Shown here: positions 12,471 through 53,177 of the stretch, piece by piece | How positions within the stretch are numbered: the stretch's first letter is position 1 | How the letters are laid out: each line of letters begins with the position of its first letter | DNA from: Streptomyces sp. NRRL WC-3742 | GTDB taxonomy: Bacteria; Actinomycetota; Actinomycetes; Streptomycetales; Streptomycetaceae | Length of the DNA: 64,000 nt | Direction of reading: 5' to 3' | NCBI RefSeq assembly: GCF_000720635.1 | Contig: NZ_JOCF01000018.1 | Span: 1-64,000, forward strand | Program-made: the position numbers and the translations under genes | Notes under the pieces: model-generated | The model's database searches: none | The model's input: the letters and a program-made list of their open reading frames with translations, nothing else | Told to the model about the DNA's origin: nothing

Positions 12471-12567
12471 CTCAGGAGGTTCTTGAGTTCAGGGGTTCTT
12501 GAGTTCAGGGGTTCTCGGGCTCAGGAGTTGTCGGGCTCAGGAGTTCTTGGGCTCAGGAGTTCTTGGA
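12471..12567. repeat. 16-bp tandem repeat x6 spanning the stop of the transketolase N subunit
   Basis: Six imperfect units of the form CTCAGGAGTTCTTGGG (plus strand), one of 17 bp and five of 16 bp. On the coding strand each reads approximately CCAAGAACTCCTGAG and contains TGA; the stop codon of the N-subunit gene (12553-12555) lies in the last unit. As 16 is not divisible by three, successive copies place TGA in all three frames. Confidence 0.95.
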
Positions 12568-13266
12568 CTCGACGCGGGCGACCACGACGTGCGGGCGGCC
12601 CGGGTGCTCGGCGGTGAAGGCGCGGTACAGGGCCTCGTGGTCGCGGCCGTCCACCGTCTCGGCCGACCAGCCCGCGGCGGCGAAGCGCTGAGCGATGCCG
12701 CCCTGCCAGCCGTGCGTGGCCGAGGAGTTGTCGATCACCACCGCGTGCAGCCGCTCCAGGCCGTAGGCGCCCGCGAAGGCGACCGCCTCGTGGTTGGAGC
12801 CCTCGTCGAACTCGGCGTCGCCGATCAGCACCCACACCGCCGGGTCCGCCAGCCCCTGCGCCCGCAGGCCCAGCGCCGTGCCGACCGCCAGCGGCAGGCC
12901 CTGGCCGAGCGAGCCGGAGGAGATCTCCACCCCGGGGAGCAGCATCCGGTCCGGGTGGTAGCCGAGCGGGGAGTCGTAGCCGCCGAAGCTCGGCAGCACC
13001 TCGGGGTCGAGGAAGCCCTTGGCCGTGAGCACGGCGTAGTAGGCCATCGGGCCGTGGCCCTTGGAGAGGAGGAACCGGTCGCGGTCCTGCGCCCCGGCCG
13101 TGGCCGGGGAGACCCGGAGCACCCGGTCGTACAGCACCCAGAGCGCGTCCAGGGTGGAGGTGGCGGCGGGGTCGTGCTTCTCGTCGCCGGTCATCAGGGC
13201 CATCAGCTTCGGGATGTCCCCGAAACGGGCCTTCGTTGCCGCGTTGGTCGCCGTGTGCGTCGTCAT
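12553..13266 (-). CDS. Transketolase N-terminal subunit (split transketolase)
   Basis: Thiamine-diphosphate-binding half of the split transketolase. 237 aa. Visible: RDRFLLSKGHGPMAYYAVL (substrate His and ThDP contacts), LPGVEISSGSLGQGLPLAVG, and the Mg/ThDP motif GDAEFDEGSNHEAVAFAG ending in a VIDNS strand. First gene after the SoxR-box promoter: the -10 CACGAT ends seven bases before the ATG, so the message is probably leaderless or nearly so. The C-terminus (ESKNS) lies within a 16-bp tandem repeat array. Divergent from soxR. Confidence 0.9.
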   Translation of the reverse strand: MTTHTATNAATKARFGDIPKLMALMTGDEKHDPAATSTLDALWVLYDRVLRVSPATAGAQDRDRFLLSKGHGPMAYYAVLTAKGFLDPEVLPSFGGYDSPLGYHPDRMLLPGVEISSGSLGQGLPLAVGTALGLRAQGLADPAVWVLIGDAEFDEGSNHEAVAFAGAYGLERLHAVVIDNSSATHGWQGGIAQRFAAAGWSAETVDGRDHEALYRAFTAEHPGRPHVVVARVESKNS

Positions 13267-13273
13267 GCCCCTG

Positions 13274-13304
13274 ATCGTGCAACCTCAAGCGAACTTGAGG
13301 TCAA
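13274..13304 (-). promoter_or_regulatory. SoxR box inside a 19-bp promoter spacer, driving the split transketolase
   Basis: The palindrome CCTCAAGCGAACTTGAGG at 13283-13300 (7-bp arms, 4-bp centre) matches the classical SoxR operator. Read on the reverse strand it lies between -35 TTGACC (13299-13304) and -10 CACGAT (13274-13279) with exactly 19 bases of spacer, the over-long spacing that MerR-family activators correct. The geometry points to the transketolase genes, not soxR, as the activated transcript; soxR may be repressed or read through the same site. Confidence 0.88.
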
Positions 13305-13323
13305 GCGGCTACAGTGCGTACCC

Positions 13324-13842
13324 ATGAGCGAGACCCCCGGCCCCCGGCACAGCGACCTGCTCACCATCGGGCAGCTCGGAAAGCGCAGCGGCCTCGCCGC
13401 CTCCGCGCTGCGCTACTACGAGAGCCTCGGGCTCATCGAGGCCACCCGCACCACCGGCGGCCAGCGCCGCTACACCCGCGCCACCCTGCGCCGCATCGCC
13501 TTCGTCCGCGCCGCCCAGCGCGTCGGCCTCTCCCTCGAGGAGGCCCGCACCGCCCTCGACCGCCTCCCCGAGCGGCCCGCCCCCAGCGGCGCCGAATGGG
13601 ACGAGGTCGCCGCCTCCTGGCAGAACCGCATCGACGAGCAGATCGCCGAACTCGAACGCCTCAAGACCAAGCTCACCGGCTGCATCGGCTGCGGCTGCCT
13701 CTCCCTCACCCGCTGCGCCCTCTACAACCTCGGCGACCGCGCCGCCGAGGCCGGCCCCGGCGCCCGCTACCTCCTCACCCGCGACCCAACCACCGGACCC
13801 GAACCGACCAGCGCCGACATCACCCCCTGCGGCGCCCGCTGA
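13324..13842 (+). CDS. soxR: Redox-sensitive transcriptional activator SoxR
   Basis: MerR-family sensor with a [2Fe-2S] cluster that activates transcription when oxidised, in streptomycetes typically by redox-active metabolites. 172 aa. HTH at the N-terminus (LTIGQLGKRSGLAASALRYYESLGLI, about residues 13-38, given here in part as RSGLAASALRYYES), a dimerisation helix, and the cluster motif C-x2-C-x-C-x5-C at Cys120, 123, 125 and 131 (CIGCGCLSLTRC). ATG at 13324. The SoxR box 24 bases upstream is shared with the divergent transketolase operon. It has the long C-terminal tail seen in actinobacterial members. Confidence 0.96.
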   Translation: MSETPGPRHSDLLTIGQLGKRSGLAASALRYYESLGLIEATRTTGGQRRYTRATLRRIAFVRAAQRVGLSLEEARTALDRLPERPAPSGAEWDEVAASWQNRIDEQIAELERLKTKLTGCIGCGCLSLTRCALYNLGDRAAEAGPGARYLLTRDPTTGPEPTSADITPCGAR

Positions 13843-15628
13843 CCGTGCCGCCTCCGCCCCTCCCGCTATGGGGCGGGAGGGGCGGACCTCGCGGGTGGTT
13901 CCTAGAGGCGGCGAGCTGGTCGGCCAGGTCGTCGAGCCCGAGTGAGCCCAGGGCGAGTGCCTTCATGTGCCAGCCCTTGAGGTCGAACGCGGCGCCCTGC
14001 CGGCTCCGGGCGGCCTCGCGCCCCTGCAGCCAGGCGCGTTCGCCGAGCTTGTAGCCGATGGCCTGGCCGGGCCAGCCGAGGTAGCGGACGATCTCGCTGT
14101 CGCGCAGTGCGGCGGGGCTGCCGTTGTACGCGGCCATGAACTCCGTGGCGAGCCCGGGGGTCCAGCGCTCGCCGGCGTGGCTGCTCCAACCGCTGCCGGC
14201 CGCCTCGGCGGGGACGGACAGGCCCAGGTGCATGCCGATGTCGACGATCACCCGGATGGTGCGCAGCATCTGCTGGTCGAGGAAGCCGAGGCGGTGGGCG
14301 GGCTCGGTGAGGAAGCCCAGGTCGTCCATGAGGCGCTCGGCGTACAGGGCCCAGCCCTCGATGGTGGCGCTGACCGTGCCGAGCGTGGTCTGGTAGCGGC
14401 TGAGCCGGTCGGCGAGGGCCACCCACTGGGCGAGCTGCAGGTGGTGGCCGGGGACTCCCTCGTGGTACCAGGTGGTGACGAGCTGCCAGGTCGGGAAGGT
14501 CTCGCGGCCGAGGGCGGGCAGGTAGGTACGGCCCAGCCGGCTGAAGTCCAGGCTGGGGCTGGAGTAGTACGGCGCCCCGGCGCTGCCGGCCGGCGCGATC
14601 CTGGACTCCACCCGGCGCAGGGGCCCGGCGATGTCGAAGTGGGTGCCGTCGAGGGCGGTGATCGCCTCCTCCATGAGCTGCTGCAGCCAGTCGCGGACCG
14701 CCTCCTCGCCCTGGACGGCGTGGCCGCGCCGCTCCAGGTGGTGCATGGCCTCGCGGACCCCGGCCCCGGGCAGCACGCGTTCGGCCTCGGTGCGCATGTC
14801 GGCGGCGAGGCGGTGGAACTCGCTCCAGGCCCAGGCGTACGCCTCCTCGAGGTCGAGGTCCGCGCCGCTGTTGTAGCGCACGGCGAGCCGGTAGCGCTCG
14901 CGCCCGACGGCGTCCGGGGTGCCGAGGGTGGCGGGCGCGTACGTGTCGCGCAGCCAGTCGCGGAACCCGGCGACGGCGGCGGTGGCCCGGCGGGCGGCGC
15001 CGTCCAGTTCCCCGCGCAGCGGCTCGGGGCCGGGGGCGACGAACTCGGCGAACCAGCCTGCGCCGCCGGTGCCTTGGCCGGTGCCTTCGCCGGTGCTTAG
15101 GCCGGCGCCTTCGCCGGTCCAGGCGGTGAGCTGGTCGACGACCGTGGCCGCCTGGCGCGGCGCGGCGAACAGCTGCCGGGACATCCCCTCGGTGAGCGTC
15201 GCCCGGTACCCGTCGAGTGCGGCGGGCAGGTTGCGCAGCCGCCCGGCCACCGCCGCCCAGTCGTCGTCGGTGGCGGTCGGCATGTAGGTGAAGATGTCCC
15301 GCACGTGGTGGACGTGGGCGCCGATGTTGCGCAGCCGGCGGAAGTTCTCGCCGGAGTCGTGCACGGCCAGTTCGGCGGCGAGGCGCTCGCGGAGCAGCCG
15401 CGCGCAGGACCGGTCGGCGGGATCTGCTCCGACGGGGGCGGTGTCCAGTGCGGCCAGGGTGCCTCGGGCGATGTCGGCGAGCGCCTCGAGCCCCTCCGGG
15501 GAGAGGTCCGGCTGCCGGTCGTCGCCCGGGTGCAGGCCCAACCGGGCGGCGGCCAGCGGATCGTGCGCGGCCACCTGGTCGAGGTGACGGTCGGCGATGG
15601 TGCGTGCAGTGATCGTTTCATCCGTCAT
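13820..15628 (-). CDS. DUF885 family protein (putative metallopeptidase-like)
   Basis: 602 aa. DUF885 proteins resemble zinc carboxypeptidases; their motif HE-x4-GHH is present as WYHEGVPGHHLQL at about residues 387-399 (His389, Glu390, His395, His396), followed by ATIEGWALYAERL that would supply a third ligand. No signal peptide, so cytoplasmic. A short Gly/Thr/Glu-rich insert (about 172-190) looks like slippage. The last ~25 residues (Pro/Gly/Arg-rich) are encoded by the soxR terminator hairpin and overlap soxR by 23 bases, so the true C-terminus may have been extended by loss of an earlier stop. ATG at 15628. Physiological role unknown. Confidence 0.85.
   Translation of the reverse strand: MTDETITARTIADRHLDQVAAHDPLAAARLGLHPGDDRQPDLSPEGLEALADIARGTLAALDTAPVGADPADRSCARLLRERLAAELAVHDSGENFRRLRNIGAHVHHVRDIFTYMPTATDDDWAAVAGRLRNLPAALDGYRATLTEGMSRQLFAAPRQAATVVDQLTAWTGEGAGLSTGEGTGQGTGGAGWFAEFVAPGPEPLRGELDGAARRATAAVAGFRDWLRDTYAPATLGTPDAVGRERYRLAVRYNSGADLDLEEAYAWAWSEFHRLAADMRTEAERVLPGAGVREAMHHLERRGHAVQGEEAVRDWLQQLMEEAITALDGTHFDIAGPLRRVESRIAPAGSAGAPYYSSPSLDFSRLGRTYLPALGRETFPTWQLVTTWYHEGVPGHHLQLAQWVALADRLSRYQTTLGTVSATIEGWALYAERLMDDLGFLTEPAHRLGFLDQQMLRTIRVIVDIGMHLGLSVPAEAAGSGWSSHAGERWTPGLATEFMAAYNGSPAALRDSEIVRYLGWPGQAIGYKLGERAWLQGREAARSRQGAAFDLKGWHMKALALGSLGLDDLADQLAASRNHPRGPPLPPHSGRGGGGTVSGRRRG
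13854..13885. terminator. Bidirectional hairpin terminator after soxR
   Basis: Perfect 13-bp stem CCGCCCCTCCCGC / GCGGGAGGGGCGG with the 6-base loop TATGGG. It sits 11 bases after the soxR stop and lies inside the last codons of the convergent DUF885 gene, so it may serve soxR mainly. Confidence 0.8.
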
Positions 15629-15674
15629 ACCGCCATCCTGGTGCAGTCGCTGCCCCGGGAGCGGGAAAACCCTT

Positions 15675-15704
15675 TTGCCGGGCGGGGGTTGCCGTGCTTA
15701 CGGT
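15675..15704 (+). promoter_or_regulatory. Putative leaderless promoter of the phosphotransferase gene
   Basis: TTGCCG (15675-15680), 18-base spacer, TACGGT (15699-15704). The expected start point, seven bases on, coincides with the ATG at 15711, which has no ribosome binding site, so the transcript is probably leaderless. Confidence 0.55.
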
Positions 15705-15710
15705 GCTGGG

Positions 15711-16634: not shown

Positions 16635-16854
16635 GCGGCACCGGGCCGGACACGGCACTGCTGCGCACAGCACGACGGACGCGGCCGGGCCCCACCACGC
16701 CAGGAACCACTGCCGAAACGACCGAACGAGACGCTGCATGACGGAGACCCCCCTCCCGCGAAGGCCCCGATGGCCTCCGCTCAAGTGCCTCCAAGACTGA
16801 CGGCTCGAGCCCATCCGCACATGTCCCGATCGGCCCATCCTGAGCTGCGAAAAC

Positions 16855-16890
16855 GCCTCGGCCCCCTGCCGATCGGCAGGGGGCCGAGGC
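16855..16890. terminator. Perfect 36-base palindrome, bidirectional terminator
   Basis: The 36 bases read identically on both strands: 18-bp arms beginning GCCTCGGCCCCCTGCC and centred on GATC. It lies between the phosphotransferase gene and the convergent GNAT gene, 10 bases after the latter's stop. No U-tract, as is usual in Streptomyces. The preceding 16635-16854 holds nothing else I can support. Confidence 0.85.
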
Positions 16891-16900
16891 AAGGGCACGC

Positions 16901-17458: not shown

Positions 17459-17523
17459 GCACGCGCCAACGTCGACGACGACCCGACGGTTCCACCGCAC
17501 CGAACCGGCACCGGCACCGGCGT

Positions 17524-18378: not shown

Positions 18379-18426
18379 CGGTTTCTTCGGACCCCAACCA
18401 GAGCCGCCCAGCCCGGGCAGAGCCGC

Positions 18427-25112: not shown

Positions 25113-25170
25113 CCGGCACTACTTGCGTAGTGGCACTACGGCAGTAGTGCCACTACGCAAGTAGTGCCGG
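25113..25170. repeat. GTAGTGSCACTAC palindrome array A (perfect 27-bp arms)
   Basis: 58 bases with perfect 27-bp inverted arms around GGCA. Internally it is modular: CCGGCACTAC - TTGC - GTAGTGGCACTAC - GGCA - GTAGTGCCACTAC - GCAA - GTAGTGCCGG, i.e. 13-bp palindromes separated by 4-bp variable spacers (17-bp period). Each CACTAC-N4-GTAGTG could form a small tetraloop hairpin. The stop codon of the membrane-protein gene ending at 25153 lies inside. A related array is at 35481-35606. Confidence 0.95.
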
Positions 25171-25611
25171 TCCGGCGACGTACAGCCAGTCGGCGACGGC
25201 GAGCGCGGCGGCGGTCCAGCCGACGACGACGGCCGGGCGGCCGACTCCGGGGCCCTTGGCGCGCTGGAAGGCGCCGATGAGCGCGGCGACGGCGGCGAGG
25301 ACGATGGCGAGGTAGGCGCCCACCCACGGCAGGACGCCGGAGATCGCGGTGGCCGCAAATCCGATGATCAGCAGGGGCGTCCACAGGCACGCGATGATCG
25401 CACCTGCGGCGGCGCAGGCGACGCGGAAGCGGTCGTGACTCGGGAAGAAGAGCGGGGCCGCACAGGCGGCGGCGCTGAGGAACTGGACCGCCAGGATGAC
25501 GTCCCACAGGACGGCGCCGCCGAACCCGGCGAGGAGGACGAGCGACGGCAGCACGAAGAGCGCGGCGGCGGCCGCGGCAAGCCGGCGGGCGCTTGGCGGC
25601 ACGACTGGCAC
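25153..25611 (-). CDS. Hypothetical integral membrane protein (about five helices)
   Basis: 152 aa, nearly all hydrophobic: helices near LAAAAAALFVLPSLVLLAGF, GAVLWDVILAVQFLSAAACA, VACAAAGAIIACLWTPLLII, WVGAYLAIVLAAVAALIGAF and VVVGWTAAALAVADWLYVAG. GTG at 25611 chosen because GGGGG lies four bases upstream; no other start has a site. The reverse frame is open much further upstream but that part is antisense to the DUF397 gene. Its last codons (GPALLA) are encoded by palindrome array A. Function unknown. Confidence 0.65.
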   Translation of the reverse strand: MPVVPPSARRLAAAAAALFVLPSLVLLAGFGGAVLWDVILAVQFLSAAACAAPLFFPSHDRFRVACAAAGAIIACLWTPLLIIGFAATAISGVLPWVGAYLAIVLAAVAALIGAFQRAKGPGVGRPAVVVGWTAAALAVADWLYVAGPALLA

Positions 25612-28513: not shown

Positions 28514-28677
28514 GGTGGCGGCTCTCCCGGACCGGCCCGGCCGGGGTGCCGGGCGACTGCGCTCCATCACAGCACCGACGGGGCGGCGTCCGTCAGGCTC
28601 GGGACGTGAACGCCTCATGTCCACGTGTACACAACAGCAGGCTTCGCCCGCCCGCCAGTTGGGTCCGCCGGTCGGCC

Positions 28678-28710
28678 GTCAGCTGCCCGTCAGCTGCCCG
28701 TCAGCTGAGC
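28678..28710. repeat. 11-bp tandem repeat x3 across the LysR gene stop
   Basis: GTCAGCTGCCC at 28678-28688 and 28689-28699, GTCAGCTGAGC at 28700-28710. The TGA stop of the LysR gene (reverse of 28690-28692) is in the middle copy; the outermost copy also contains TGA. Confidence 0.9.
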
Positions 28711-29595
28711 GGCCAGGTGGACCGCCAGCACCGCCGCCGGGCCCTCCGGGAGGCTGCCGTGCACGAGTTCCGTGCGGTGCACCAGGCGCGGCGCCGTCAC
28801 CGGCACGCCGACCACGCCGGACGCCTCCTCCAGGACGGGCCGCGGCAGCAGCGCCAGCCCGTGCCCGGCGGCGACGAGTGCGAGCAGCCCGCGCACGTCG
28901 GTGCCCCGGTAGCGGGTGGCGGCCCGGAAGCCGTCCACGCCGGTGACGGCCCTCAGCCGGGCGCCCGTGGGGGCCAGTTCGGGGGCGTCCAGCCAGCGGG
29001 CGGTGGACAGGTCGGCGAGGGCGAGGCCCGGCCGCCCGGCCAGCGGGTGCCCGGCGGGCAGGGCGACGGCCACCGGCTGCTCCTCGACGGCGACGGTGGT
29101 GAGCGGGCCGACCTCGGGCAGCGGCAGCGGGTCGCTGGGCGCGGCGAGGCCGTCGATCAGCGCGAGGTCGACCTCCCCGGTGGCGACCTGGGCGGGCAGC
29201 ACGTCCTGGCCGAGCACCCGTACGTCCGGTTCCGTCCTCGGGTACGCACGGCGCACTTCGCCGAGCGCGCGCCCCAGGGACGCCCCGACCGCCAGCGGGG
29301 TCGCGCCGACCACCAGGCGGGCGCCCGAGGCGCCGGCCAGGCGTGCGATGTCGGCGCGCGCCGCCGCCAGCCGGACGAGCAGCGGCGCGGCGTGCTCCAG
29401 CAGCCGCTGCCCGGCCGGGGTCGGGCCGACGGGGCGACGCACCAGCAGGGGCGCGCCGAGGTCCGCCTCCAGGGAGGCGATCTGCTGGGAGACGGCGGAC
29501 TGGGTGTAGCCGAGCTCCCGGGCGGCCTCGGAGAAGGAGGCGAGGCGGGCGACGGTGACGAAGGTGCGCAGCTGCTGCGGGTCCACGGCGGTCAT
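28690..29595 (-). CDS. LysR-family transcriptional regulator
   Basis: 301 aa. N-terminal winged HTH QQLRTFVTVARLASFSEAARELGYTQSAVSQQIASLEADLGAPLLVRR (in part SFSEAARELGYTQSAVSQQI), then a type-2 periplasmic-binding-protein-like effector domain. ATG 29595. Divergent from the CTP-synthase-like gene; the 70-bp space contains TGATCCC-N6-GGGGTCA (29637-29656), a near-palindrome that may be its site. Effector unknown. The C-terminus QLTGS is encoded by the first copies of an 11-bp repeat. Confidence 0.92.
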   Translation of the reverse strand: MTAVDPQQLRTFVTVARLASFSEAARELGYTQSAVSQQIASLEADLGAPLLVRRPVGPTPAGQRLLEHAAPLLVRLAAARADIARLAGASGARLVVGATPLAVGASLGRALGEVRRAYPRTEPDVRVLGQDVLPAQVATGEVDLALIDGLAAPSDPLPLPEVGPLTTVAVEEQPVAVALPAGHPLAGRPGLALADLSTARWLDAPELAPTGARLRAVTGVDGFRAATRYRGTDVRGLLALVAAGHGLALLPRPVLEEASGVVGVPVTAPRLVHRTELVHGSLPEGPAAVLAVHLAAQLTGS

Positions 29596-30391: not shown

Positions 30392-30420
30392 AGCCCCTTG
30401 GCACATCAGCCGATCAGGTC

Positions 30421-30450
30421 GGCTCAGAACGGCTCAGAACGGCTCAGAAC
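30421..30450. repeat. 10-bp tandem repeat x3 across the GNAT gene stop
   Basis: GGCTCAGAAC three times without mismatch. On the coding strand the unit is GTTCTGAGCC; the gene's TGA (reverse of 30444-30446) is in the copy nearest the gene, and each further copy supplies TGA in another frame. Confidence 0.95.
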
Positions 30451-31022
30451 GGCAGCGACCGCAGCCGCACCGGCCCCTCCGGCCAGACGGCCCCCTGTGC
30501 CAGCGGCGCCCACATGGTGCGCAGCGGCATCTCCACCAGCCGCCCCTCGGGCTGCTCCACGGTGACGGCCTCCGCCACCTCGCGGAAGCCCAGGCCCCGG
30601 TAGAGGGCGGCCTTCTGCGGGCGGCAGAACAGCAGCGCGTAGCGGACGCCGAGCCCGCGCGCGTGGTCGAGCGCGGCGGTGACGACCGTTCCGGCGAGGC
30701 CCTGGCCACGCCTCGCCGGGGCGACGCACACCCCGCCGACGCCCATCGCCTCCAGGTCGGCGCCGCCCACGGTGAGCGTCACCGGCCGCAGCCCGGTGTG
30801 GGCGACGAGCCGGCCGTCCTCGGCCCGGATGCCGAAGTGGATCTCCTTGGGCAGGAAGGACATCCCGAGGTGGGCGACGCCGTACGCGTCCGAGTCCTGG
30901 CCGAGGATCTCCTCCTGCTCGGGGTTGCCGTAGTGCGCCAGCCGCTCGACCTCGGCTGCGGGAGCGGAACCTGCGCCGGCCCCGGCTCCCGTTCCGGCGA
31001 TGGCAGAGTCATGATCGTTCAT
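30444..31022 (-). CDS. GNAT family N-acetyltransferase
   Basis: 192 aa. N-terminal low-complexity Gly/Ala stretch (GTGAGAGAGSAPAAE), then the GNAT fold with GVGGVCVAPARRGQGLAGTVVTAAL (acetyl-CoA loop ARRGQGLAG) and LFCRPQKAALYRGLGFREV. ATG 31022. Ends in a 10-bp repeat array that contains its stop. Substrate unknown. Confidence 0.82.
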   Translation of the reverse strand: MNDHDSAIAGTGAGAGAGSAPAAEVERLAHYGNPEQEEILGQDSDAYGVAHLGMSFLPKEIHFGIRAEDGRLVAHTGLRPVTLTVGGADLEAMGVGGVCVAPARRGQGLAGTVVTAALDHARGLGVRYALLFCRPQKAALYRGLGFREVAEAVTVEQPEGRLVEMPLRTMWAPLAQGAVWPEGPVRLRSLPF

Positions 31023-31111
31023 GGAGCCATGTTCTCCTCTCCCCCGGCCCGGTGACCACCCCTTTCCCGGCCACCGGCGCCCCCGTCGGGGGCCTGTGCA
31101 ACCATGCCCCC

Positions 31112-32314
31112 ATGCGCCGGCCCTTCGCTCCGTCCACCGACGATCCCGCCCTCCCTACACCGCCCGCGCTGCCGCGCCAACTGCCGCGCCCGGTCACCGT
31201 TCTGGCGCCCACCGTGATGGTGCTGCTGATGCTGGTCCCGCTCGCCACGCACGATCCGGAGGTCGGGCCGACCACCTCGCGGCCGCTCAACGCCGCCCTG
31301 ATGGCGGCCGGCGCGCTGGTGCTCGTCCTGCGGCGGCGGTGGCCGGAGGCCGTCGCGCTGTTCACCCTGGTCGGCGGCCAACTCCCGCTCGCCTTCGCGC
31401 TCTACGCCCTCACCGCCCTGCGCGGCCGCAGCCCGGTGGCGTCCGGCCTGGCGGCCCTCGCCGTGGCGCGGCTGCTCGGGCCCTTCGACCTCGACGACCT
31501 GGCCGGAATCTCCCAGCTCGCCAACCTGATCGAGGACCCGCTGGTCTTCGGCGTCGTCCCGATCGCCCTGGGCCTCACCGCGCACCAGCGGGCCCGCACC
31601 GTCTCCGTGCTCGCCGAGCACAACCGGCTGCTGGCCGAACGCAACCGGCTCCTGGAGGAGCGCAACCAGCTGCTGGAGGAGGCCCGGCTGCACGCCGAGG
31701 AGCGGGCGGCGGCGGCCGAACGGGCCAGGCTCGCCCGGGAGATGCACGATGTGGTGTCCAACCGGGTGTCACTGATCACCCTGCACGCGGGCGGCGCCCG
31801 GCTCGCGCAGACGGGGGACCCGGAGGCCGTCGGGGAGACCCTCGGGCTGATCCGTACCCTCGGGCTGCAGGCGCTCACCGAACTGCGGGGCCTGCTCGGC
31901 GTGTTGACCCCGTCCTCGGACGACGGACCCTCGCTGCGCGGGCTGCCCGCCCTGGTGCAGGAGTCCCGACAGGCGGGCCTGGCCGTCGAGTTGAGCATCA
32001 CCGGCACGGCCGAGGCCGGGCCGGCCGCGCAGTACGCGGCGTACCGGATCGTCCAGGAGGCGCTGACCAACGCCCACAAGCACGCGTCGACCGCCGAGGT
32101 CGCCGTCACCCTGGCGGCCACGGCGGACGGGCTGCGCCTGGCGGTGGTCAACTCGCCTGCCTCCGAAGGCACTTCGGACGCCGCCGCGCTGCCCTCGGGC
32201 GGGCACGGACTGGACGGCATGCGCACCCGCGCCACCGACCTCGGCGGCACCCTGGAGGCCGGGCCGACCCCGGACGGCGGGTTCGCCGTCCGGGCCCGGC
32301 TGCCGCTCTCCTGA
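31112..32314 (+). CDS. Sensor histidine kinase (NarL/DesK type), no adjacent response regulator
   Basis: 400 aa. Five hydrophobic segments in residues 25-170, a coiled coil built on repeats of NRLLAERNRLLEERNQLLEE, then the HisKA_3 motif ARLAREMHDVVSNRVSLITL with the phospho-His, and HATPase motifs ALTNAHKHAS (N box) and GGHGLDGMRTRATDLGGTLE (G boxes). Such kinases almost always precede a LuxR-type response regulator; here the next gene is coaE on the opposite strand and no receiver protein is near. ATG 31112 fits the usual N-terminal length. Signal unknown. Confidence 0.92.
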   Translation: MRRPFAPSTDDPALPTPPALPRQLPRPVTVLAPTVMVLLMLVPLATHDPEVGPTTSRPLNAALMAAGALVLVLRRRWPEAVALFTLVGGQLPLAFALYALTALRGRSPVASGLAALAVARLLGPFDLDDLAGISQLANLIEDPLVFGVVPIALGLTAHQRARTVSVLAEHNRLLAERNRLLEERNQLLEEARLHAEERAAAAERARLAREMHDVVSNRVSLITLHAGGARLAQTGDPEAVGETLGLIRTLGLQALTELRGLLGVLTPSSDDGPSLRGLPALVQESRQAGLAVELSITGTAEAGPAAQYAAYRIVQEALTNAHKHASTAEVAVTLAATADGLRLAVVNSPASEGTSDAAALPSGGHGLDGMRTRATDLGGTLEAGPTPDGGFAVRARLPLS

Positions 32315-32346
32315 CCGGCCGCTCTCCCAACCGGCCGCTCTGCCAA
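32296..32346. repeat. 16-bp tandem repeat at the histidine kinase stop
   Basis: The gene end (CCGGCTGCCGCTCTCCTGA, 32296-32314, stop TGA) is followed by CCGGCCGCTCTCCCAA (32315-32330) and CCGGCCGCTCTGCCAA (32331-32346). The stop-codon segment appears as CCAA in the copies. Confidence 0.8.
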
Positions 32347-32358
32347 CCAGCTAACCGG

Positions 32359-33747: not shown

Positions 33748-34182
33748 ATGCCCGACGACGCGACCCCCCACCCGGACACCCTGGACCTCGCCGCCGACCT
33801 CCGCGCCTGCCTCGGCACCCTGGTCCGCTCCCTGCGCGACAGCGACGAGCTGCCGCAGAACCAGGCCGCCGTCCTCGGCCGGCTGGTCCGCGACGAGCGC
33901 CCGTACACCGTCGCCGAACTCGCCGACCGCCAGCGGGTGCGCCACCAGTCGATGGCCCGCACCGTCGCCCTGATGACCGAGGCCGGACTCGTCGTCCAGC
34001 AGCCCCACCCCACCGACGGCCGCAAGCAGCTGATCGCCGCCACCGAGGCCGGGCACACCGCCCTCCTCGACCAGCGCTCCCGCCGCGAGCACCAGCTCGC
34101 CACCGCCATCGAGGCCCGCCTCAGCCCCGCCGACCAGGAGCGCCTGCGCGAGATGATCACCCTCCTCGGCCGCCTGTCCTGA
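33748..34182 (+). CDS. MarR-family transcriptional regulator
   Basis: 144 aa. Winged HTH: LPQNQAAVLGRLVRDERPYT, VAELADRQRVRHQSMARTVA (recognition region), LMTEAGLVVQQPHPTDGRKQ (wing). Probably represses itself and the divergent MBL hydrolase through the palindrome between them. Ligand unknown. The stop region is duplicated downstream: CCGCCTGTCCTGAG (34170-34183) is followed by CCGCCCGTCCGAG and CCGCCTGCC. Confidence 0.92.
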   Translation: MPDDATPHPDTLDLAADLRACLGTLVRSLRDSDELPQNQAAVLGRLVRDERPYTVAELADRQRVRHQSMARTVALMTEAGLVVQQPHPTDGRKQLIAATEAGHTALLDQRSRREHQLATAIEARLSPADQERLREMITLLGRLS

Positions 34183-34268
34183 GCCGCCCGTCCGAGCCGC
34201 CTGCCCCCTCACTCAAGATCAACACCCGGCGGAACCGGCGCTTCCACCCCCTGCTAAGGTCCAGCGAC

Positions 34269-35385: not shown

Positions 35386-35496
35386 TACGAGCCCTGGGAC
35401 CGCGACCACCTCGTCCTCGACACCGCCCACCGCTCGATCGAGGACCGCGCGGCCGACCTGCTCGCCGCCGCGCCGACGCCGGAACTACCGCAGTAG
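35386..35496 (+). pseudogene. C-terminal remnant of a TmrB-like P-loop kinase
   Basis: Reads YEPWDRDHLVLDTAHRSIED then RAADLLAAAPTPELPQ and a TAG. The pattern 'PWDRxHLVLDTA...' followed by a helix is the C-terminal end of small P-loop kinases. No N-terminal part or start exists upstream; zapE ends 25 bases before. The stop codon lies in the first palindrome unit of array B. Confidence 0.55.
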
Positions 35497-35606
35497 TGCC
35501 ACTACTCGCGTAGTGGCACTACGCACGTAGTGCACCCGCACGGGTGACGGCGGCACCTCGCGAGCAGTGGAACTACTCCAGTAGTGGCACTACGTGCGTA
35601 GTGCCC
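35481..35606. repeat. GTAGTGSCACTAC palindrome array B (two blocks)
   Basis: Block 1: GGAACTAC - CGCA - GTAGTGCCACTAC (35493-35505) - TCGC - GTAGTGGCACTAC (35510-35522) - GCAC - GTAGTGCAC. Block 2: GCAGTGGAACTAC (35564-35576) - TCCA - GTAGTGGCACTAC (35581-35593) - GTGC - GTAGTGCCC. Same 13-bp palindrome and 4-bp spacers (17-bp period) as array A at 25113, but with different spacers and therefore not a recent copy. It lies between the convergent zapE and MMPL genes. Confidence 0.93.
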
Positions 35607-35620
35607 GCCGCCTCCTCGAC

Positions 35621-35640
35621 CCCCTCAGACCCCCTCAGAC
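35621..35640. repeat. 10-bp repeat x2 at the MMPL gene stop
   Basis: CCCCTCAGAC twice, preceded by the degenerate CCTCCTCGAC (35611-35620). The MMPL stop (reverse of 35635-35637) is in the inner copy. Confidence 0.85.
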
Positions 35641-37857
35641 CTCCACCAGGTCCTTCGCCGGACGCTGCGCCGGAATCGCCGCCGCCCCGCCCTCGCCCCC
35701 CAGCTCCGGCAGTTCCACGTGCTCGCTCAGGCCGAAGCGCCGGTGCAGCCGCCGCAGCGGGGCCGGGGCCCACCAGTTGAACTCGCCGAAGAACGTCATC
35801 GCCGCCGGGACCAGCAGGGAGCGCACCAGTGTGGCGTCCACCGCCACGGCGACGGCCAGGGCGATGCCCATCTGTTTGACCATCAGCATGTCCCCGGCCG
35901 CGAAGCCCGCGAAGACGATCACCATCAGCAGGGCCGCCGAGGTGATGATCCGACCGCTGCGCTGCAGCCCCAGCTCCACCGCGCGCCGGCAGCCGTAGCC
36001 GCGCGCGTGCAGTTCCTTGATCCGGGCGAGCAGGAACACCTCGTAGTCCATCGAAAGCCCGAACGCGAAGGCGAACACCAGCACCGGGATGAACGTCTCC
36101 AGCCCGCCCGTCGGGCTGAACCCGAGCAGCCCGCTGAACCAGCCGTCCTGGAACACCAGTGTCAGCGCGCCGAGCGAGGCCCCCAGCGAGAGCAGGTTCA
36201 TCAGCAGCGCCTTGACGGGCATCACCACCGAGCCCGTCATCAGGAAGAGCAACACCAGGGTCCCGGCCGCGACCAGCCCCAGCGCCCAGGGGCCGCGCGA
36301 GGACAGCTCGTCCTGGAAGTCCACCACCGAGGCCGCGCCGCCGGTGACGTACGTGGTCAGCCCGCCCCGGTGTTCCCGCAGCTCGTCCACCACCTGCTTG
36401 GCGCCGCCGCCCTGCGGGTCCCCGGGCACCAGCACGTCCACGGTCGACACCGAGTCGCTCACGGGCGTCACCGCCCGTACCCCGCTGACCCCGGGCAGCT
36501 TGGCGACCACGTCGTCCGCGTACGCCTGGGCCGCCTGGGCCCCGCCCTCGACGACCACGGTGATCGGCGCGGCGGCCACCTGCGGGAAGCGCTGGTCGAT
36601 GGTCTCGGCGACCTGCCGCCCCGCCGAGGAGGCGGGCAGCACCGCGGCGCCGGAGCTGCGCATCTGCGCGTGGAAGAACGGCGCCCCGGCCGCCATCAGC
36701 AGCGCGACGCAGGCCAGCGAGACGGGCACGGCCCGTTTGCTCACCCGCCGCACCGTTCGGCTGAAGAAGCCCTCGTCCGAGACCGGCTTGGTCGGGGCCT
36801 TGATCCTGGAGCCGGCGAAGCCGAGCAGCGCGGGGATGAGGGTCAGCGCGGCGGCCACGGCGATCACGACGACGCTGACGCCCGCCGCGGCGACGGCGCC
36901 GAGCACCGGGCTGGTGAAGACGAACAGGCCGGAGAGCGCCACGGCCACGGTCAGTCCGGAGAAGGCGACGGTCCGTCCGGCGGTCGCGGCGGTCCGCTCG
37001 ACGGCGGCGGCGATGCCCGCGCCGTGGCCTCGTTCCTCGCGGAAACGATTCACCATGAGAAGCGCGTAGTCGATGGAGAGCCCGAGCCCGAGCACGGTGG
37101 CGATCGGCAGCACGCTGGTGTCGATGTCCATGATCCGGCTGAACCCGAACATCGCCAGCAGGGCCCCGCCCACCGAGGCGACCGCCCCGATCACCGGCAG
37201 CGAGGCCGCCGCCAGCCCGCCGAAGACCAGCACCATCACGACCAGGGTGAGCGGCAGGGTCACCATCTCGCCGAAGCGGGTGTCCCGCTCGGTCTGCTTC
37301 TTGACCTCCTGCTGGAGCACCAGGTCCCCGCCGACGGTCACGTGCGCCCCGCCAGCGCCGTCCAGCGCCGCCAGCCGCGAGGCGACCGCGTCGGTCTGCG
37401 CGGTGGTCGCGCCGTCCGCCATCCGTACGGTCAGCAGGCTGGCCGTGCCGTCCGCGGCGCGCAGGGCGGCGGGGGCCGGCCCGTGCCCGTACGCGTCCAG
37501 CGCGGAGGAGACCCCGGGCAGGCCCGTGATCTCGGCGGTCGCCTTCTCCACGGCCGCCCGTACGACGGGGTCGGTCACGGGCTTGCCGTCCACGACCGCG
37601 GTGACGGTGCCCTCGGACGGGTCGACCGCGGCGGTGACGGCGGCGCCCCGGTCGGCCTCGGCACTGGCGGAGGAGGCTCCGGCCACCGACCCCTCGAACA
37701 CCCGGCCGCCGATCAGCACGCCGACGACCAGGACGACGGCCCAGAAGCCGAGCACCCAGCGGCGGTGGCGGAAGCAGAACCGGCCGATCGCCGCGAGGCG
37801 GCCGCCGACCACGGCGCCGACCACAGCGGCGGGGGCGGCGGAGGAGGGGTTGCGCAT
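35635..37857 (-). CDS. MMPL/RND-family transporter
   Basis: 740 aa membrane exporter with two halves: helices near WVLGFWAVVLVVGVLIGG, then an extracytoplasmic domain, the GLSIDYALLMVNRFREER motif (Asp-Tyr proton relay) and a second half with the matching FGLSMDYEVFLLARIKELHA. AAAGG lies eight bases before the ATG at 37857. Substrate unknown; streptomycete MMPLs export lipids or polyketide-like products. Palindromes upstream suggest control by an unlinked regulator. The stop lies in a 10-bp repeat. Confidence 0.94.
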   Translation of the reverse strand: MRNPSSAAPAAVVGAVVGGRLAAIGRFCFRHRRWVLGFWAVVLVVGVLIGGRVFEGSVAGASSASAEADRGAAVTAAVDPSEGTVTAVVDGKPVTDPVVRAAVEKATAEITGLPGVSSALDAYGHGPAPAALRAADGTASLLTVRMADGATTAQTDAVASRLAALDGAGGAHVTVGGDLVLQQEVKKQTERDTRFGEMVTLPLTLVVMVLVFGGLAAASLPVIGAVASVGGALLAMFGFSRIMDIDTSVLPIATVLGLGLSIDYALLMVNRFREERGHGAGIAAAVERTAATAGRTVAFSGLTVAVALSGLFVFTSPVLGAVAAAGVSVVVIAVAAALTLIPALLGFAGSRIKAPTKPVSDEGFFSRTVRRVSKRAVPVSLACVALLMAAGAPFFHAQMRSSGAAVLPASSAGRQVAETIDQRFPQVAAAPITVVVEGGAQAAQAYADDVVAKLPGVSGVRAVTPVSDSVSTVDVLVPGDPQGGGAKQVVDELREHRGGLTTYVTGGAASVVDFQDELSSRGPWALGLVAAGTLVLLFLMTGSVVMPVKALLMNLLSLGASLGALTLVFQDGWFSGLLGFSPTGGLETFIPVLVFAFAFGLSMDYEVFLLARIKELHARGYGCRRAVELGLQRSGRIITSAALLMVIVFAGFAAGDMLMVKQMGIALAVAVAVDATLVRSLLVPAAMTFFGEFNWWAPAPLRRLHRRFGLSEHVELPELGGEGGAAAIPAQRPAKDLVEV

Positions 37858-45165: not shown

Positions 45166-45171
45166 ACACGG

Positions 45172-47441: not shown

Positions 47442-47488
47442 GCACCGGCCGCCGTCCCGTCGTCGGAGCCCCGCGCCGAACGTCACAC

Positions 47489-47523
47489 CTCACGCCTCAC
47501 ATCTCACGCCTCACGCCTCACGC
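47489..47523. repeat. 7-bp tandem repeat x5 across the cutA stop
   Basis: CTCACGC, CTCACAT, CTCACGC, CTCACGC, CTCACGC. On the coding strand the unit is GCGTGAG; the cutA TGA (reverse of 47511-47513) is one of five TGA occurrences spaced by seven. Confidence 0.92.
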
Positions 47524-47834
47524 GTCTCGGCGGCGATCCAGGCCAGGTAGGCGGCGGAGCCGGTGGTGACCGGGAGGGCGAGGACCTCGGGGGTGTCGTA
47601 GGTGTGCAACTCGGCGATGCGGGCGGTGAGTCGGTCGGCGAGGTCGGCGCGGGTCTTGAGGTCCAGGCGCCATTCGGCGGTGTCCTGGACCTCGCCGTCC
47701 CACCAGTAGACGGAGCGGACGGGGTACACCTGCGCGCAGGCCGCGAGGCGCTCGCGCACGAGCGCGGCGGCGAGGTCGCGGGCCTTGGCCTCGTCGTCGT
47801 GGGTGGTGGTCACCACGAGGAAGTCACCGGTCAT
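47511..47834 (-). CDS. cutA: Divalent-cation tolerance protein CutA
   Basis: 107 aa, normal length. CutA1 signature: FLVVTTTHDDEAKARDLAAA, LVRERLAACAQVYPVRSVYW with the conserved ACAQ, WDGEVQDTAEWRLDLKTRAD, and YDTPEVLALPVTTGSAAYLA. Forms stable trimers; role in copper tolerance in E. coli is debated. ATG 47834. Convergent with the tandem-GNAT gene. Confidence 0.95.
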   Translation of the reverse strand: MTGDFLVVTTTHDDEAKARDLAAALVRERLAACAQVYPVRSVYWWDGEVQDTAEWRLDLKTRADLADRLTARIAELHTYDTPEVLALPVTTGSAAYLAWIAAETREA

Positions 47835-49159: not shown

Positions 49160-49189
49160 GTCAGCCGTGCGGGACGACAGGCCCAGGGC

Positions 49190-50041: not shown

Positions 50042-50114
50042 GGGTGGACCTCCACAGCGAAGCATCAGGGCATGATGGGATCACTCGCGGAACAAGTATC
50101 TCGTGAAACACGTA

Positions 50115-50129
50115 TCTCGCTCAGCGAGA
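50115..50129. promoter_or_regulatory. Palindromic MarR operator
   Basis: TCTCGCTCAGCGAGA, perfect 6-bp arms around TCA. The octamer GTATCTCG occurs twice just before (50096-50103, 50112-50119). It lies between the divergent hydrolase and MarR genes. Confidence 0.65.
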
Positions 50130-50167
50130 GAATAGTGGCACACGCATGCCCGGAGACGGAGTAGAGG

Positions 50168-50653
50168 ATGCCCGAAGCCCCACCACGGCCCGAGCCGACG
50201 GACCCGATGCGGCTGGTCCACCTGATGCGCGCACTCACCGTCGAACTCGACCTGTTCGGCGCCGAGTTCGCCTCCCGCAACGCCCTCCACCCCACCGACC
50301 TGCGCGCCCTGATCCACCTCCTGGACGCCGCCCGCGCGGGCCGGGTCGTCACCCCCGGGCGCCTCGGCGAAGCCCTGCACCTCAACTCCGCCGGCACCAC
50401 GGCCCTGGTCGACCGCCTGGAACGCCTCGCCCTCGTCCGCCGCGACCGCGACCCCGAGGACCGCCGCCGCGTACGCCTCACCGTCGAACAGCGGGCGATG
50501 GACCTCGGCCAGGGCTTCTTCGGTGGACTGATCGCCGAACTGGTCGCCGCCATGGGCGAGTTCGACGCGTCCGAGCTGGAGACGGTCCGCCGCTTCCTGG
50601 AGACGATGACCGCCGTCGTCGCCAACGCCGAGCGGGAGGCCCTCAGCCCCTGA
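50168..50653 (+). CDS. MarR-family transcriptional regulator
   Basis: 161 aa. HTH: ALHPTDLRALIHLLDAARAG, VVTPGRLGEALHLNSAGTTA, LVDRLERLALVRRDRDPEDR and RRRVRLTVEQ (wing). Probably regulates the divergent hydrolase through TCTCGCTCAGCGAGA. ATG 50168. Its last 11 bases overlap the convergent TmrB-like gene. Confidence 0.9.
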   Translation: MPEAPPRPEPTDPMRLVHLMRALTVELDLFGAEFASRNALHPTDLRALIHLLDAARAGRVVTPGRLGEALHLNSAGTTALVDRLERLALVRRDRDPEDRRRVRLTVEQRAMDLGQGFFGGLIAELVAAMGEFDASELETVRRFLETMTAVVANAEREALSP

Positions 50654-51167
50654 GGGCCTGCGCGATCCGCTGCGCCACCTCGGCGGGCGCCAGGTGCGTG
50701 GTGTCCACGACCTCGGCCTCGGCGTGCAGCCAGGTGCGCGCCGCCTCCGCGTACGGCTCCAGGTGGCGGAGCCTGAACGGGGAGTCGGGGCCGACCACGA
50801 CGTCCCCCGCGATGCGCCCGCGCAAGGTCGCCCGGTCCGCGTGGAGGACGAAGTGCCGTACGGGGATGGCGTGTTGCGCCAGGCCGTCGCTGATCTCGCG
50901 CCAGTACTCCTCGACCAGGACGGTCATGGGGACGACCAGCGTGCCGCCGGTGTAGTCCAGCACCCGGCGCGCGGTCTCGACCACGAGCGGGCGCCACGGC
51001 GGCCAGTGCTGGAAGTTGTCCGTCTCGGGCAGGCCCGGCGTGATGTCCATGAGCGTCTCGCCGACCTTCTCGGCGTCGAACACCCGTGAGTCCGGGATCA
51101 GTTGCTGCACGAGTGCGCTGGTCGTCGTCTTGCCCGCGCCATGGGTACCGTTGAGCCAGATGATCAC
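50643..51167 (-). CDS. TmrB-like P-loop ATP-binding protein
   Basis: 174 aa. Walker A IIWLNGTHGAGKTTTSALVQ at 2-21, FDAEKVGETLMD, the WRPLVVETARRVLD block and FVLHADRATLRGRI, the layout of tunicamycin-resistance TmrB and related small P-loop kinases. Such proteins bind or modify small molecules; the resistance role is not established here. ATG 51167. A TmrB-like C-terminal fragment survives at 35386. Confidence 0.85.
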   Translation of the reverse strand: MIIWLNGTHGAGKTTTSALVQQLIPDSRVFDAEKVGETLMDITPGLPETDNFQHWPPWRPLVVETARRVLDYTGGTLVVPMTVLVEEYWREISDGLAQHAIPVRHFVLHADRATLRGRIAGDVVVGPDSPFRLRHLEPYAEAARTWLHAEAEVVDTTHLAPAEVAQRIAQALRG

Positions 51168-51190
51168 CCGCCGATGCTAAGCCCTGCGTT

Positions 51191-51240
51191 TCGGACCGCG
51201 CCCCTGTCCCGCCCATCGGAACGCGCCCCCTATCCCGCCC
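51191..51240. repeat. 25-bp direct repeat across the CGNR gene stop
   Basis: 51191-51215 begins TCGGACCGCGCCCC and 51216-51240 begins TCGGAACGCGCCCC; both end TCCCGCCC. The gene's TAG (reverse of 51230-51232) is in the inner copy; in the outer copy it has become CAG. Confidence 0.8.
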
Positions 51241-51790
51241 GGCGGGCGCGGAAGGCGGCGGCCTTGACGCGGTTCTGGCAGGCCGTGGAGCAGAACTGGC
51301 GGCCGGCGTTGCGGGAGGTGTCCACGTAGACGCGGTCGCAGCGCGGGGCCGCGCAGACGCCGAGGCGGCCGGCGTAGTCGCCGCCGATGGCCATGGCCAG
51401 GCCCGTGGCGCAGCCGGCGCGCCACCCGACGGCGTACGAGTCGTCGGCGCCGTGGAAGTGGACCTGCCAGGGTTCGCCCGGCGCCCGGTCCAACTGGGGG
51501 CGGGCGCCGCTGTCCTGGAGGATCGCATTGAGGGCGTGGACGGCCTCGTCGAGGCGGTCCTCGGCGACGGCTTCGAAGATGGTGCGCAGGGCGCGGGCGG
51601 TCGCGGCCAGGTGGTCGGCGGCGTCGGCGTCGAGGTCGGCTCCGGCGTTGAGGACGGCCCGGACGGCGCCCACGCGTTCGGCGCCCTCGGGCGCGACGTA
51701 GGCGCGGCCGCGCGCCTCGCCGTCGGTGAGTCCGTTGACGAGGGCGATGGAGGCGTCGAGAAGCGCCCGCATGTGACTGTCGAACAACAC
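51230..51790 (-). CDS. CGNR zinc finger / ABATE domain protein
   Basis: 186 aa. N-terminal ABATE-like region (LLDASIALVNGLTDGEARGR) and a C-terminal CGNR zinc finger: CAAPRCDRVYVDTSRNAGRQ then FCSTACQNRVKAAAFRARRA, with the C-x4-C and C-x3-C ligands. Actinobacterial, probable transcription regulator. GTG at 51790, second codon TTG; either could start. Divergent from an MFS exporter it may regulate. Confidence 0.9.
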   Translation of the reverse strand: MLFDSHMRALLDASIALVNGLTDGEARGRAYVAPEGAERVGAVRAVLNAGADLDADAADHLAATARALRTIFEAVAEDRLDEAVHALNAILQDSGARPQLDRAPGEPWQVHFHGADDSYAVGWRAGCATGLAMAIGGDYAGRLGVCAAPRCDRVYVDTSRNAGRQFCSTACQNRVKAAAFRARRAG

Positions 51791-51820
51791 TTGACCAGTT
51801 ACCCCTCACTCGCCTACGGT
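51791..51820 (+). promoter_or_regulatory. Promoter of the MFS gene
   Basis: TTGACC (51791-51796), 18-base spacer, TACGGT (51815-51820), giving a leader of about 60 bases before the GTG at 51886. TCACTGACA/CAGTGACG half-sites at 51839-51876 could bind the CGNR protein (inference). Confidence 0.7.
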
Positions 51821-51885
51821 GCTCATCACCGCAGTCCATCACTGACATTATCCGATTCACCAGTGACGCGAGAGAGTGGCCGCCC

Positions 51886-53103
51886 GTGCCCCGCCCCGAG
51901 GCATTGCCCCGCACCGTCCGCCTGCTCCTCCTCGCCCGGGTCGTGAACCGGCTCGGAGCCTTCTCCCTGCCCTTCCTCACCGCGCTGATCCGCACCGACC
52001 ACGGCGCGAGCCTCACCACCGCCGGACTGGTCACGGCCGCCTTCGGCCTGGCCACCATCCCCTCCCGGCTGGCCGGCGGACGCCTCGCCGACCGGATCGG
52101 CCGCCGCTCCACGATCGTGCTCGGCCTCTGCGGCTGCGCCCTCGCCCAGACGGCGATCGCCGCCTCCCGCTCACTCCCCTCGGCGGTCGCGGGCGCGGTG
52201 CTGCTCGGGCTCGCCTTCGAGCTGTACGAGCCGCCGAGCCAGGCCCTCGTCAGCGAAGCCGTACCGCCGCAGCACCGCGTGCGCGCGTTCAGCCTGTTCA
52301 GCGCGGCCATCGCCGCCGGGGCCATGGGCGCCGGACTGCTCGCCGCGCTGCTCGGCCGCTGGGACCTGCGGCTGCTCTTCCTCGCCGACGCCGCCACCTG
52401 CCTGGCCTGCGCCCTGCTGATCCGGCTCGCCCTCCCCCGGGACCGCCCCGCCTCCCGGCCCGCCGAAACGGCGCCGCCCATCCGGCCGCTGCGCGACCCG
52501 CGGTTGGTCAGCGTCCTGGCCACCGGCACCGCCTACGCCCTGATCAACCAGCAGACGGTGATGTCCCTGCCCCTGGCGCTCGCCCGCGAGGGGCGCCCCG
52601 CCGCCGACGCCGGGCTCCTGTTCACCGCCGCCGCGGCCACCACCGTCCTCGCCCAGCCCCTGACCCGGCTGCCCGCGATCGAGAGGCTGTCGACGCCCGC
52701 CGCCCTCGCCCTGGCCCACCTGCTCCTCGCGGCCGGGCTCACCGGCTACGCGCTCGCGCACTCCCTGCCCGCGCTGATCGCCGCCACCGCCGTGATGAGC
52801 CTCGGCGACCTGCTGGTCATCGGCCGCGCCTATGCCCTGGTCGCCGACCTCGCCCCCCCCGGCGCCGCCGGCCGCTACCTGGCCGTCTTCGGCACCAGCT
52901 GGGGCATCGCCGCCACCCTCGCCCCCGTCCTCGGCACCCAACTCCTCGCCCACGCCGGCACGACGGCGCTCTGGTCGACGTCGGCCGCGCTGTGCCTGCT
53001 GCTCGCCGCCGCCCACCTGAGAGTGACGCCCCGATCCCCCAACGAGCTTCCGGCACCGGGCCGTCGCCTTCCTTCCCCCCGGCCCACCGCGCACGACGGC
53101 TGA
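51886..53103 (+). CDS. MFS transporter
   Basis: 405 aa, 12 hydrophobic segments. MFS loop 2-3 motif GGRLADRIGRRSTIVLGLCG at about 65-84, and PPSQALVSEAVPPQHRVRAF between helices 4 and 5. Likely a proton-driven small-molecule exporter. Starts at GTG 51886. Divergent from the CGNR regulator. The C-terminus is Pro/Arg-rich and ends HDG within a 13-bp tandem repeat. Confidence 0.92.
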   Translation: MPRPEALPRTVRLLLLARVVNRLGAFSLPFLTALIRTDHGASLTTAGLVTAAFGLATIPSRLAGGRLADRIGRRSTIVLGLCGCALAQTAIAASRSLPSAVAGAVLLGLAFELYEPPSQALVSEAVPPQHRVRAFSLFSAAIAAGAMGAGLLAALLGRWDLRLLFLADAATCLACALLIRLALPRDRPASRPAETAPPIRPLRDPRLVSVLATGTAYALINQQTVMSLPLALAREGRPAADAGLLFTAAAATTVLAQPLTRLPAIERLSTPAALALAHLLLAAGLTGYALAHSLPALIAATAVMSLGDLLVIGRAYALVADLAPPGAAGRYLAVFGTSWGIAATLAPVLGTQLLAHAGTTALWSTSAALCLLLAAAHLRVTPRSPNELPAPGRRLPSPRPTAHDG

Positions 53104-53177
53104 GCACGACGGCTGAGCACGACGGCTGAGCACGACGGCTGAGCACGACGGCTGAGCACGACGGCTGAGCACGACGG
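53091..53177. repeat. 13-bp tandem repeat, six full copies, starting at the MFS stop
   Basis: GCACGACGGCTGA six times without mismatch (53091-53168) plus a partial copy to 53177. The first copy encodes the last codons and TGA of the MFS gene; the others repeat the stop in successive frames. Confidence 0.97.

Follow-up and report, generated by a model that had tools for sequence, protein, structure and literature searches.

Tandem arrays over stop codons in a Kitasatospora genome: ordinary duplication as their probable origin, and a palindrome family at gene ends

Several genes in the opening 64,000 nucleotides of contig C18 of Streptomyces sp. NRRL WC-3742 (hereafter the window) end in short tandem arrays that run across the stop codon (Table 1). 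Most such stop-spanning arrays are very probably survivors of ordinary short tandem duplication, a reading that draws on the observed position, unit lengths, conservation, gap-type dependence and lineage differences of the arrays, and from which we infer replication slippage as the molecular step and neutrality of the arrays themselves. Short tandem duplications arise all over the chromosome; within genes almost only units divisible by three survive, few persist around starts and promoters, and survival is highest past a stop. Duplicating a segment that contains the stop keeps the first stop, and hence leaves the protein unchanged, whatever the unit length. By this simple rule, an array seems to begin within the final codons and to include the stop in its copies because stop-containing duplications do no harm. 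A minority of gene-end repeats are members of dispersed families defined by their sequence; chief among these is CACTAC-N4-GTAGTG, the units of which can join into long hairpins, mostly at gene ends.

Positions of the arrays along genes and gaps

The genome (coded G000) is an 8.74-Mb draft assembly of 233 contigs. Judged by the window's DNA polymerase I (Pfam match), its closest named relatives are Kitasatospora and Kitasatospora-like 'Streptomyces' records, and it was treated as a Kitasatospora within the family Streptomycetaceae; relatives carry similar codes (G001, G004, G008, G011, G013, G017, G070, G072, G079 and others). A search for a second strain of the same species found none, the nearest genomes in the genus search being 92-94% identical at the polA-end query. 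Tandem arrays were scanned at lags 5-45, with Tandem Repeats Finder (TRF) as confirmation, in 1,662,571 bases (~1.66 Mb) of this genome, drawn non-randomly as 20-kb stretches of contigs C1-C14 plus the window; a sample of 400 kb from the relative G011 served for comparison. Genes, 62 of them in the window, were called with a self-trained script of our own rather than a standard program.

Arrays with a period of at least 7 span a stop in 51 cases and a start in five, and the stop falls within the first copy in 50 of the 52 stop-spanning arrays. The same one-sidedness is seen within the window, where 8/14 noncoding arrays found by the scan span a stop and 0/14 span a start. Units duplicated at gene ends are mostly 7-21 bp long. 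A chance origin was rejected, as first-order Markov resampling of this genome's intergenic DNA produced 0-2 arrays against the 161 observed. Arrays number 2.36 per kb of collapsed gap between convergent genes, 1.07 between codirectional genes and 0.47 between divergent genes, a gradient that is what tolerance predicts. The upstream stop is spanned by 32 of the 106 arrays in codirectional gaps, and only 3/106 extend beyond the downstream start; 5/29 arrays in divergent gaps extend beyond a start.

Anchoring at the stop itself was assessed by the end of the duplicated unit, since a harmless stop-containing duplication may end anywhere past the stop. With arrays in convergent gaps entered once from each side, duplication density was 2.79/kb at 0-15 bp past the stop and 2.76/kb at 15-30 bp (p = 1.0), and therefore shows no peak at the stop.

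The preliminary description of the window listed nine genes with repeats at their ends, at least eight of them with the stop codon inside the repeat unit. Pfam supports the names of all nine and the arrays lie where they had been placed, with the stop recurring in later copies at six of the nine (transketolase N subunit, MFS, GNAT, LysR, cutA and MMPL), but the later copies at the CGNR, MarR and histidine kinase genes lack it. The CGNR and MarR repeats fall below the threshold of the array scan. Repeats had also been described directly after the stops of a treX-like and a thioesterase gene, and both indeed begin past the stop. One of the eight stop-spanning arrays of the window, with a 17-bp period at 25127-25168, lies outside that list. 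As a whole, the earlier observation was partly confirmed.

Short tandem duplications in bacterial intergenic DNA, including variable number tandem repeats (VNTRs), arise by replication slippage. The arrays described here share with VNTRs their short head-to-tail units, variability among lineages, accumulation where DNA is unconstrained and divisibility by three within genes, and differ from them in nothing essential; the apparent anchoring at stops would mark the places where duplications are tolerated. Mycobacterial interspersed repetitive units, also from an actinobacterium, are likewise tandem and intergenic and overlap stops and starts. However, they are about 50-100 bp long and sequence-related across loci, whereas most arrays here are shorter and mutually unrelated.

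Unit length, conservation of stops and back-up termination

Within coding sequence, arrays were almost exclusively of periods divisible by three (245/1/2 for period modulo 3 of 0/1/2), pointing to sound gene calls and to the purging of frame-breaking duplications. Arrays across a stop gave 13/17/22 (n = 52 array-stop pairs), or 13/12/19 without the window. A scan of this kind had been proposed as a check in the preliminary description, which noticed that the clear units of the window were never divisible by three; here it revealed no significant departure of the multiple-of-three share from one third (p = 0.13 with the window, 0.36 without it). The share did not differ significantly between stop-spanning and other noncoding arrays either (Fisher p = 0.17 with the window, 0.47 without it). 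The absence of length bias in noncoding DNA, together with multiples of three within genes, is what neutral duplication leads one to expect.

Units that shift the frame from copy to copy had invited another interpretation, in which the copies set stops in other frames and selection keeps them as a catch for ribosomes that have shifted or read through. In the window, the six clear units (7, 10, 10, 11, 13 and 16 bp) are all non-multiples of three, as such back-up termination would have it, although the chance probability of this is 0.088 and the rule fails beyond the window, where 13/44 stop-spanning arrays are multiples of three. The stops in the copies are kept no better than their surroundings: later copies retain the stop triplet unchanged in 81/103 cases (78.6%) and the other triplets of the same units in 902/1173 (76.9%; Wilcoxon p = 0.68). 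The eight window arrays alone (16/18 for the stop triplet vs 226/285 for other triplets) are too few to weigh.

Gene ends in general offer no sign of such selection. Of 865 array-free gene ends, fractions of 0.131, 0.128 and 0.147 had a stop among the next 33 nt in frames 0, +1 and +2, compared with 0.137, 0.125 and 0.130 in shuffles; stops were in excess neither in frame nor off frame. Ho and Hurst 2019 likewise report, for additional in-frame stops in eubacteria, no compelling evidence of selection and a paucity rather than an enrichment (PMC6764699). The arrays are like additional 3' stop codons (fail-safe stops) in placing stops past the primary one, but they differ in showing neither an excess nor extra conservation of stops, nor a significant frame bias; downstream stops enriched or conserved over background, by which fail-safe stops are recognised, were not found. 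Back-up stops were thus rejected on four tests, namely frame, conservation, duplication density (no peak anchored at the stop) and general downstream stops. Tandem back-up termination is a tempting story that we now set aside as wrong, leaving it very little probability. The other interpretation offered with the first description, in which slippage products simply persist beyond the stop, is supported for the bulk of the arrays, and the initial interpretation is to that extent partly supported; the palindrome family behind one stop-spanning array stays unexplained by slippage.

Orthologous gene ends, array abundance and competing origins

Neutral duplication also leads one to expect lineage differences at orthologous places, and these were seen, as presence or absence of arrays with gains and losses taken together. 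Among the best-matching orthologs, searched within 110-130 bp, an array was present at the MFS end in 0/4, at LysR in 1/10, at cutA in 2/29 (one of them stop-spanning) and at MMPL in 6/29 (none stop-spanning). At the transketolase N end, read in 51 of the 70 Kitasatospora genomes searched, this one included, arrays were called in the spacer in 14/51 genomes, four of them stop-spanning, with units of 9-24 bp. The stop of this gene is TAG in G070, and by eye the near-copies downstream also bear TAG, suggesting an origin or homogenisation later than the change to TAG.

The same comparisons bear on whether the arrays are functional elements of the 3' untranslated region, such as terminators or mRNA stabilisers, maintained by selection. 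The 3' bias and the enrichment in convergent gaps would be consistent with such a role, as would the palindrome family described below, which folds much more stably than shuffled sequence and lies mostly at gene ends, and two further families that are inverted repeats by sequence. For the bulk of the arrays, however, this explanation is unlikely: the array is absent at most orthologous ends (MFS 4/4, LysR 9/10, cutA 27/29, MMPL 23/29), units vary from species to species, and only 13/195 noncoding arrays match the palindrome or a heptad family by regular expression, so that the finding rests mostly on arrays outside these families.

An artefact of the 233-contig assembly would be a further possibility, as the arrays of this genome were read from a single draft. 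It is hardly credible, given that the longest stop-spanning array of the window measures only ~108 bp and that like arrays occur in assemblies of one (G072), three (G079), five (G017) and six (G004) contigs, as well as at orthologous places.

Array abundance in this genome is not exceptional. Noncoding DNA holds 1.00 array/kb here and 0.32/kb in G011; a genome-specific excess, suggested by the latter value and by 0.37/kb at 24 Kitasatospora PolA loci, was abandoned in view of five other 80-kb Kitasatospora samples, which span 0.54-1.62/kb.

Several observations weigh against survival of ordinary duplications as a complete account. Multiples of three are fewer among stop-spanning (13/52) than among other noncoding arrays (52/144), although not significantly so (the Fisher test with the window given above). 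Duplication density drops further from the stop, to 1.9/kb at 30-60 bp and 1.4/kb at 60-120 bp, and it does so in convergent gaps as well; therefore 3' proximity counts beyond mere noncoding status. Constraint from neighbours and terminators may account for this drop, but does not explain it fully. Array density is uneven among contigs C1-C14 and C18 (0.12-2.31/kb noncoding). The window has eight stop-spanning arrays, whereas 111 other overlapping 60-64-kb segments of the sample average 1.7 and hold at most five; presumably it was chosen for its richness in arrays, and the frame pattern was first noticed there. Finally, the transketolase N ends of G000, G079, G017 and G011 have a similar 16-bp unit, and some of these arrays may have been inherited rather than newly born.

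A palindrome family and other inverted repeats at gene ends

A spaced-word count in intergenic DNA picked out ACTAC at 17 bp. The corresponding palindrome, CACTAC-N4-GTAGTG, has 119 exact copies in this genome (reversed-pattern control, 0), and a slightly relaxed pattern yields 115 tandem doublets at 17-bp pitch (control, 0). Other Kitasatospora genomes have 0-2 exact copies each, with any copy in 11/69, and across the whole family 393 other genomes have 0-2 each (any in 48/393), as does the reversed control. Among the 394 genomes examined, the palindrome family is abundant in this one only. A pattern search of viral_contigs gave no match in phages, and blastn with one cluster gave none in plasmids, where the low-complexity filter may hide repeats. 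No published account of the family was found by word search in open PMC text.

In the 1.66-Mb sample, noncoding DNA has 22 exact copies and coding DNA 0. Altogether 29 clusters were read, 11 from the sample and 18 fetched around the matches listed (more copies exist), with genes around the latter called on pieces of ~1.4-1.5 kb. Fourteen lie in convergent, 12 in codirectional and three in divergent gaps, and 23/29 overlap a stop or lie at most 31 bp downstream of one, compared with 16.6% of random 50-bp placements; for the sample-derived clusters alone the count is 9/11. In the window cluster at 25117-25166, which supplies the stop-spanning array absent from the earlier list, GTAG supplies the TAG stop of a gene of 149 codons with no Pfam match (25153-25602, minus strand).

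Of the 21 tandem triplets read, 12 have a first N4 that matches the third exactly as its reverse complement, whereas 20,000 permutations averaged 1.3 such triplets and never exceeded seven; clusters could have been copied from one another, and neither this count nor the covariation counts below represent independent events. The outer N4s do not match in 9/21 triplets, and isolated doublets are evenly divided (3/6 matching, 3/6 non-matching). Imposing a 23-bp stem on an alignment (A1) of 20 of the 21 triplets, the excluded one overlapping another, gave 33 cells with changes on both sides vs 14.2 in shuffles, a covariation score of 0.146 vs 0.054, and 90.4% of cells paired vs 84.8%, each value unequalled in 500 shuffles (0/500). 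There was no excess on the same stem in both-side-changed pairs (5 vs 5.3) or in further pair types (12 vs 11.9). The linker bases covary as well (G-C in 10 triplets, C-G in five, unpaired in five). Four clusters had RNA folding z values of -13.4, -5.1, -11.1 and -12.7, each below 200/200 shuffles; the second belongs to the five-unit cluster at 35483, which does not fold as one simple hairpin. The complementarity of the N4s could stem from selection or from a copying mechanism.

The perfect dyad symmetry and the conserved 6-bp half-site would also suit an array of transcription-factor operators, in which case the palindrome family would not be a hairpin element at all. This is distinctly improbable, as 23 of the 29 clusters lie at or just downstream of a stop and only three in divergent gaps, and as an operator would have no need of outer N4s that are complementary far more often than in permutations.

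Closer parallels are found among repetitive extragenic palindromes (REPs). GTAG REPs are found downstream of genes; those in convergent gaps commonly have both 3' ends within 20 bp, and GTAG REPs often provide a TAG stop (PMC3733652). Paired REPs that form hairpins are termed REPINs (PMC3116915). The main text of PMC3733652 contains neither 'Streptomyces' nor 'actinobacteria'. The family described here shares with these elements its many dispersed extragenic palindromic copies, and with GTAG REPs in particular a location in convergent and codirectional gaps near 3' ends and a GTAG end that can give a TAG stop. Pairing of units into one hairpin, as in REPINs, is seen in about half of the cases (12/21 triplets, 3/6 doublets). 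In contrast to GTAG REPs, which carry GTAG at one end of the hairpin, the unit is symmetric, with CTAC and GTAG inside the arms, 2 nt from the ends; the units are also arranged in tandem with a 17-bp pitch, and a Y1 transposase was not detected. A PF01797 search of this genome for the Y1, or REP-associated tyrosine, transposase (RAYT) gave 0 matches at E ≤ 0.001, with a positive control that matched in 5/14 genomes and past loss of a RAYT possible, and RAYT-driven REPs in the strict sense were rejected on this ground. Given its symmetric unit and the negative search for a Y1 transposase, the family is REPIN-like, not a REP.

Tentatively, CACTAC-N4-GTAGTG may represent a distinct kind of dispersed hairpin element that multiplied in a single Kitasatospora lineage with no RAYT detectable. 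Its tandem triplets might form three small hairpins or, alternatively, a single 23-bp stem, the complementarity of the outer N4s might be maintained by selection or by hairpin-copying (template-switch), and the element might settle at gene ends, where its sequence can serve as a TAG stop. A genome-specific, covarying palindrome family at actinobacterial gene ends, in a genome with no REP-type (Y1) transposase detected, would make the spread of REP-like elements, and the action of their hairpins as RNA or as DNA, testable in a new lineage.

Two other families of inverted repeats were recognised. Arrays of the heptad TGAC(A/G)GN number 18 on contig C4 and three on C9 (stretches L040, L072-L080 and L099-L100), with 0 on the other contigs read; 14/21 lie in convergent gaps, the arrays often forming inverted arms that flank a centre such as GACAGATTTCACCATCTGTC (nine centres), and one was found in relatives, in G079 (L246). 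The heptad family comprises 7/195 noncoding arrays of the whole sample and a small part of the density excess of C4. A hairpin, CAGGAAGTCG...CGACTTCCTG, has 10 intergenic copies in 1.66 Mb, on C1, C2, C5, C6 and C14 (within L002-L111). In relatives its density is lower, with three copies in 2.0 Mb (80 PolA loci and five Kitasatospora samples) and 0 exact copies in G011. No known RNA family was detected in the window at the gathering threshold.

Table 1. Tandem arrays and palindrome clusters in the window, with strand and the evidence or comparison for each
Position	Strand	Feature	Evidence or remark
7140..7189	+	16-bp repeat from 3 bp past the stop of a treX-like isoamylase-type gene (4926-7136)	sequence
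12478..12566	-	16-bp tandem array over transketolase N stop (gene 12553-13266)	12463-12570 in TRF; spacer read in 51 Kitasatospora genomes, this one included
25117..25166	.	three CACTAC-N4-GTAGTG units, 17-bp pitch, N4 TTGC/GGCA/GCAA, one long hairpin	supplies stop-spanning array 25127-25168
28676..28707	-	11-bp array over LysR stop (gene 28690-29595)	sequence, scan, Pfam
30420..30453	-	10-bp array over GNAT stop (gene 30444-31022)	sequence, scan, Pfam
32302..32348	+	16-bp array over histidine kinase stop (gene 31052-32314)	stop missing from later copies
34169..34203	+	imperfect 14-bp repeat at MarR stop (gene 33748-34182)	later copies without stop triplet
35483..35603	.	five palindrome units (three + two), convergent gap downstream of MMPL	pattern search
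35618..35641	-	10-bp array over MMPL stop (gene 35635-37857)	stop-spanning array in 0/29 orthologs (best 29 of 69 other genomes)
47483..47523	-	7-bp (14-bp) array over cutA stop (gene 47511-47834)	sequence, scan, Pfam, orthologs
51191..51240	-	25/26-bp duplication at CGNR stop (gene 51230-51790)	second copy without stop
53091..53178	+	13-bp array over MFS stop (gene 51886-53103), convergent gap before DNA polymerase I gene	no array in 4 orthologs
56669..56731	+	18-bp array directly past thioesterase stop (gene 56165-56668)	sequence, scan

The 13-bp array at the MFS gene consists of 6.8 identical copies (100% match in TRF). The MFS gene adjoins the DNA polymerase I gene here (51886-55980), whereas the two lie ~1.08 Mb apart on one contig in G011 and on different contigs in the drafts G013, G008 and G001; a rearrangement or insertion at this junction in the present genome is possible.

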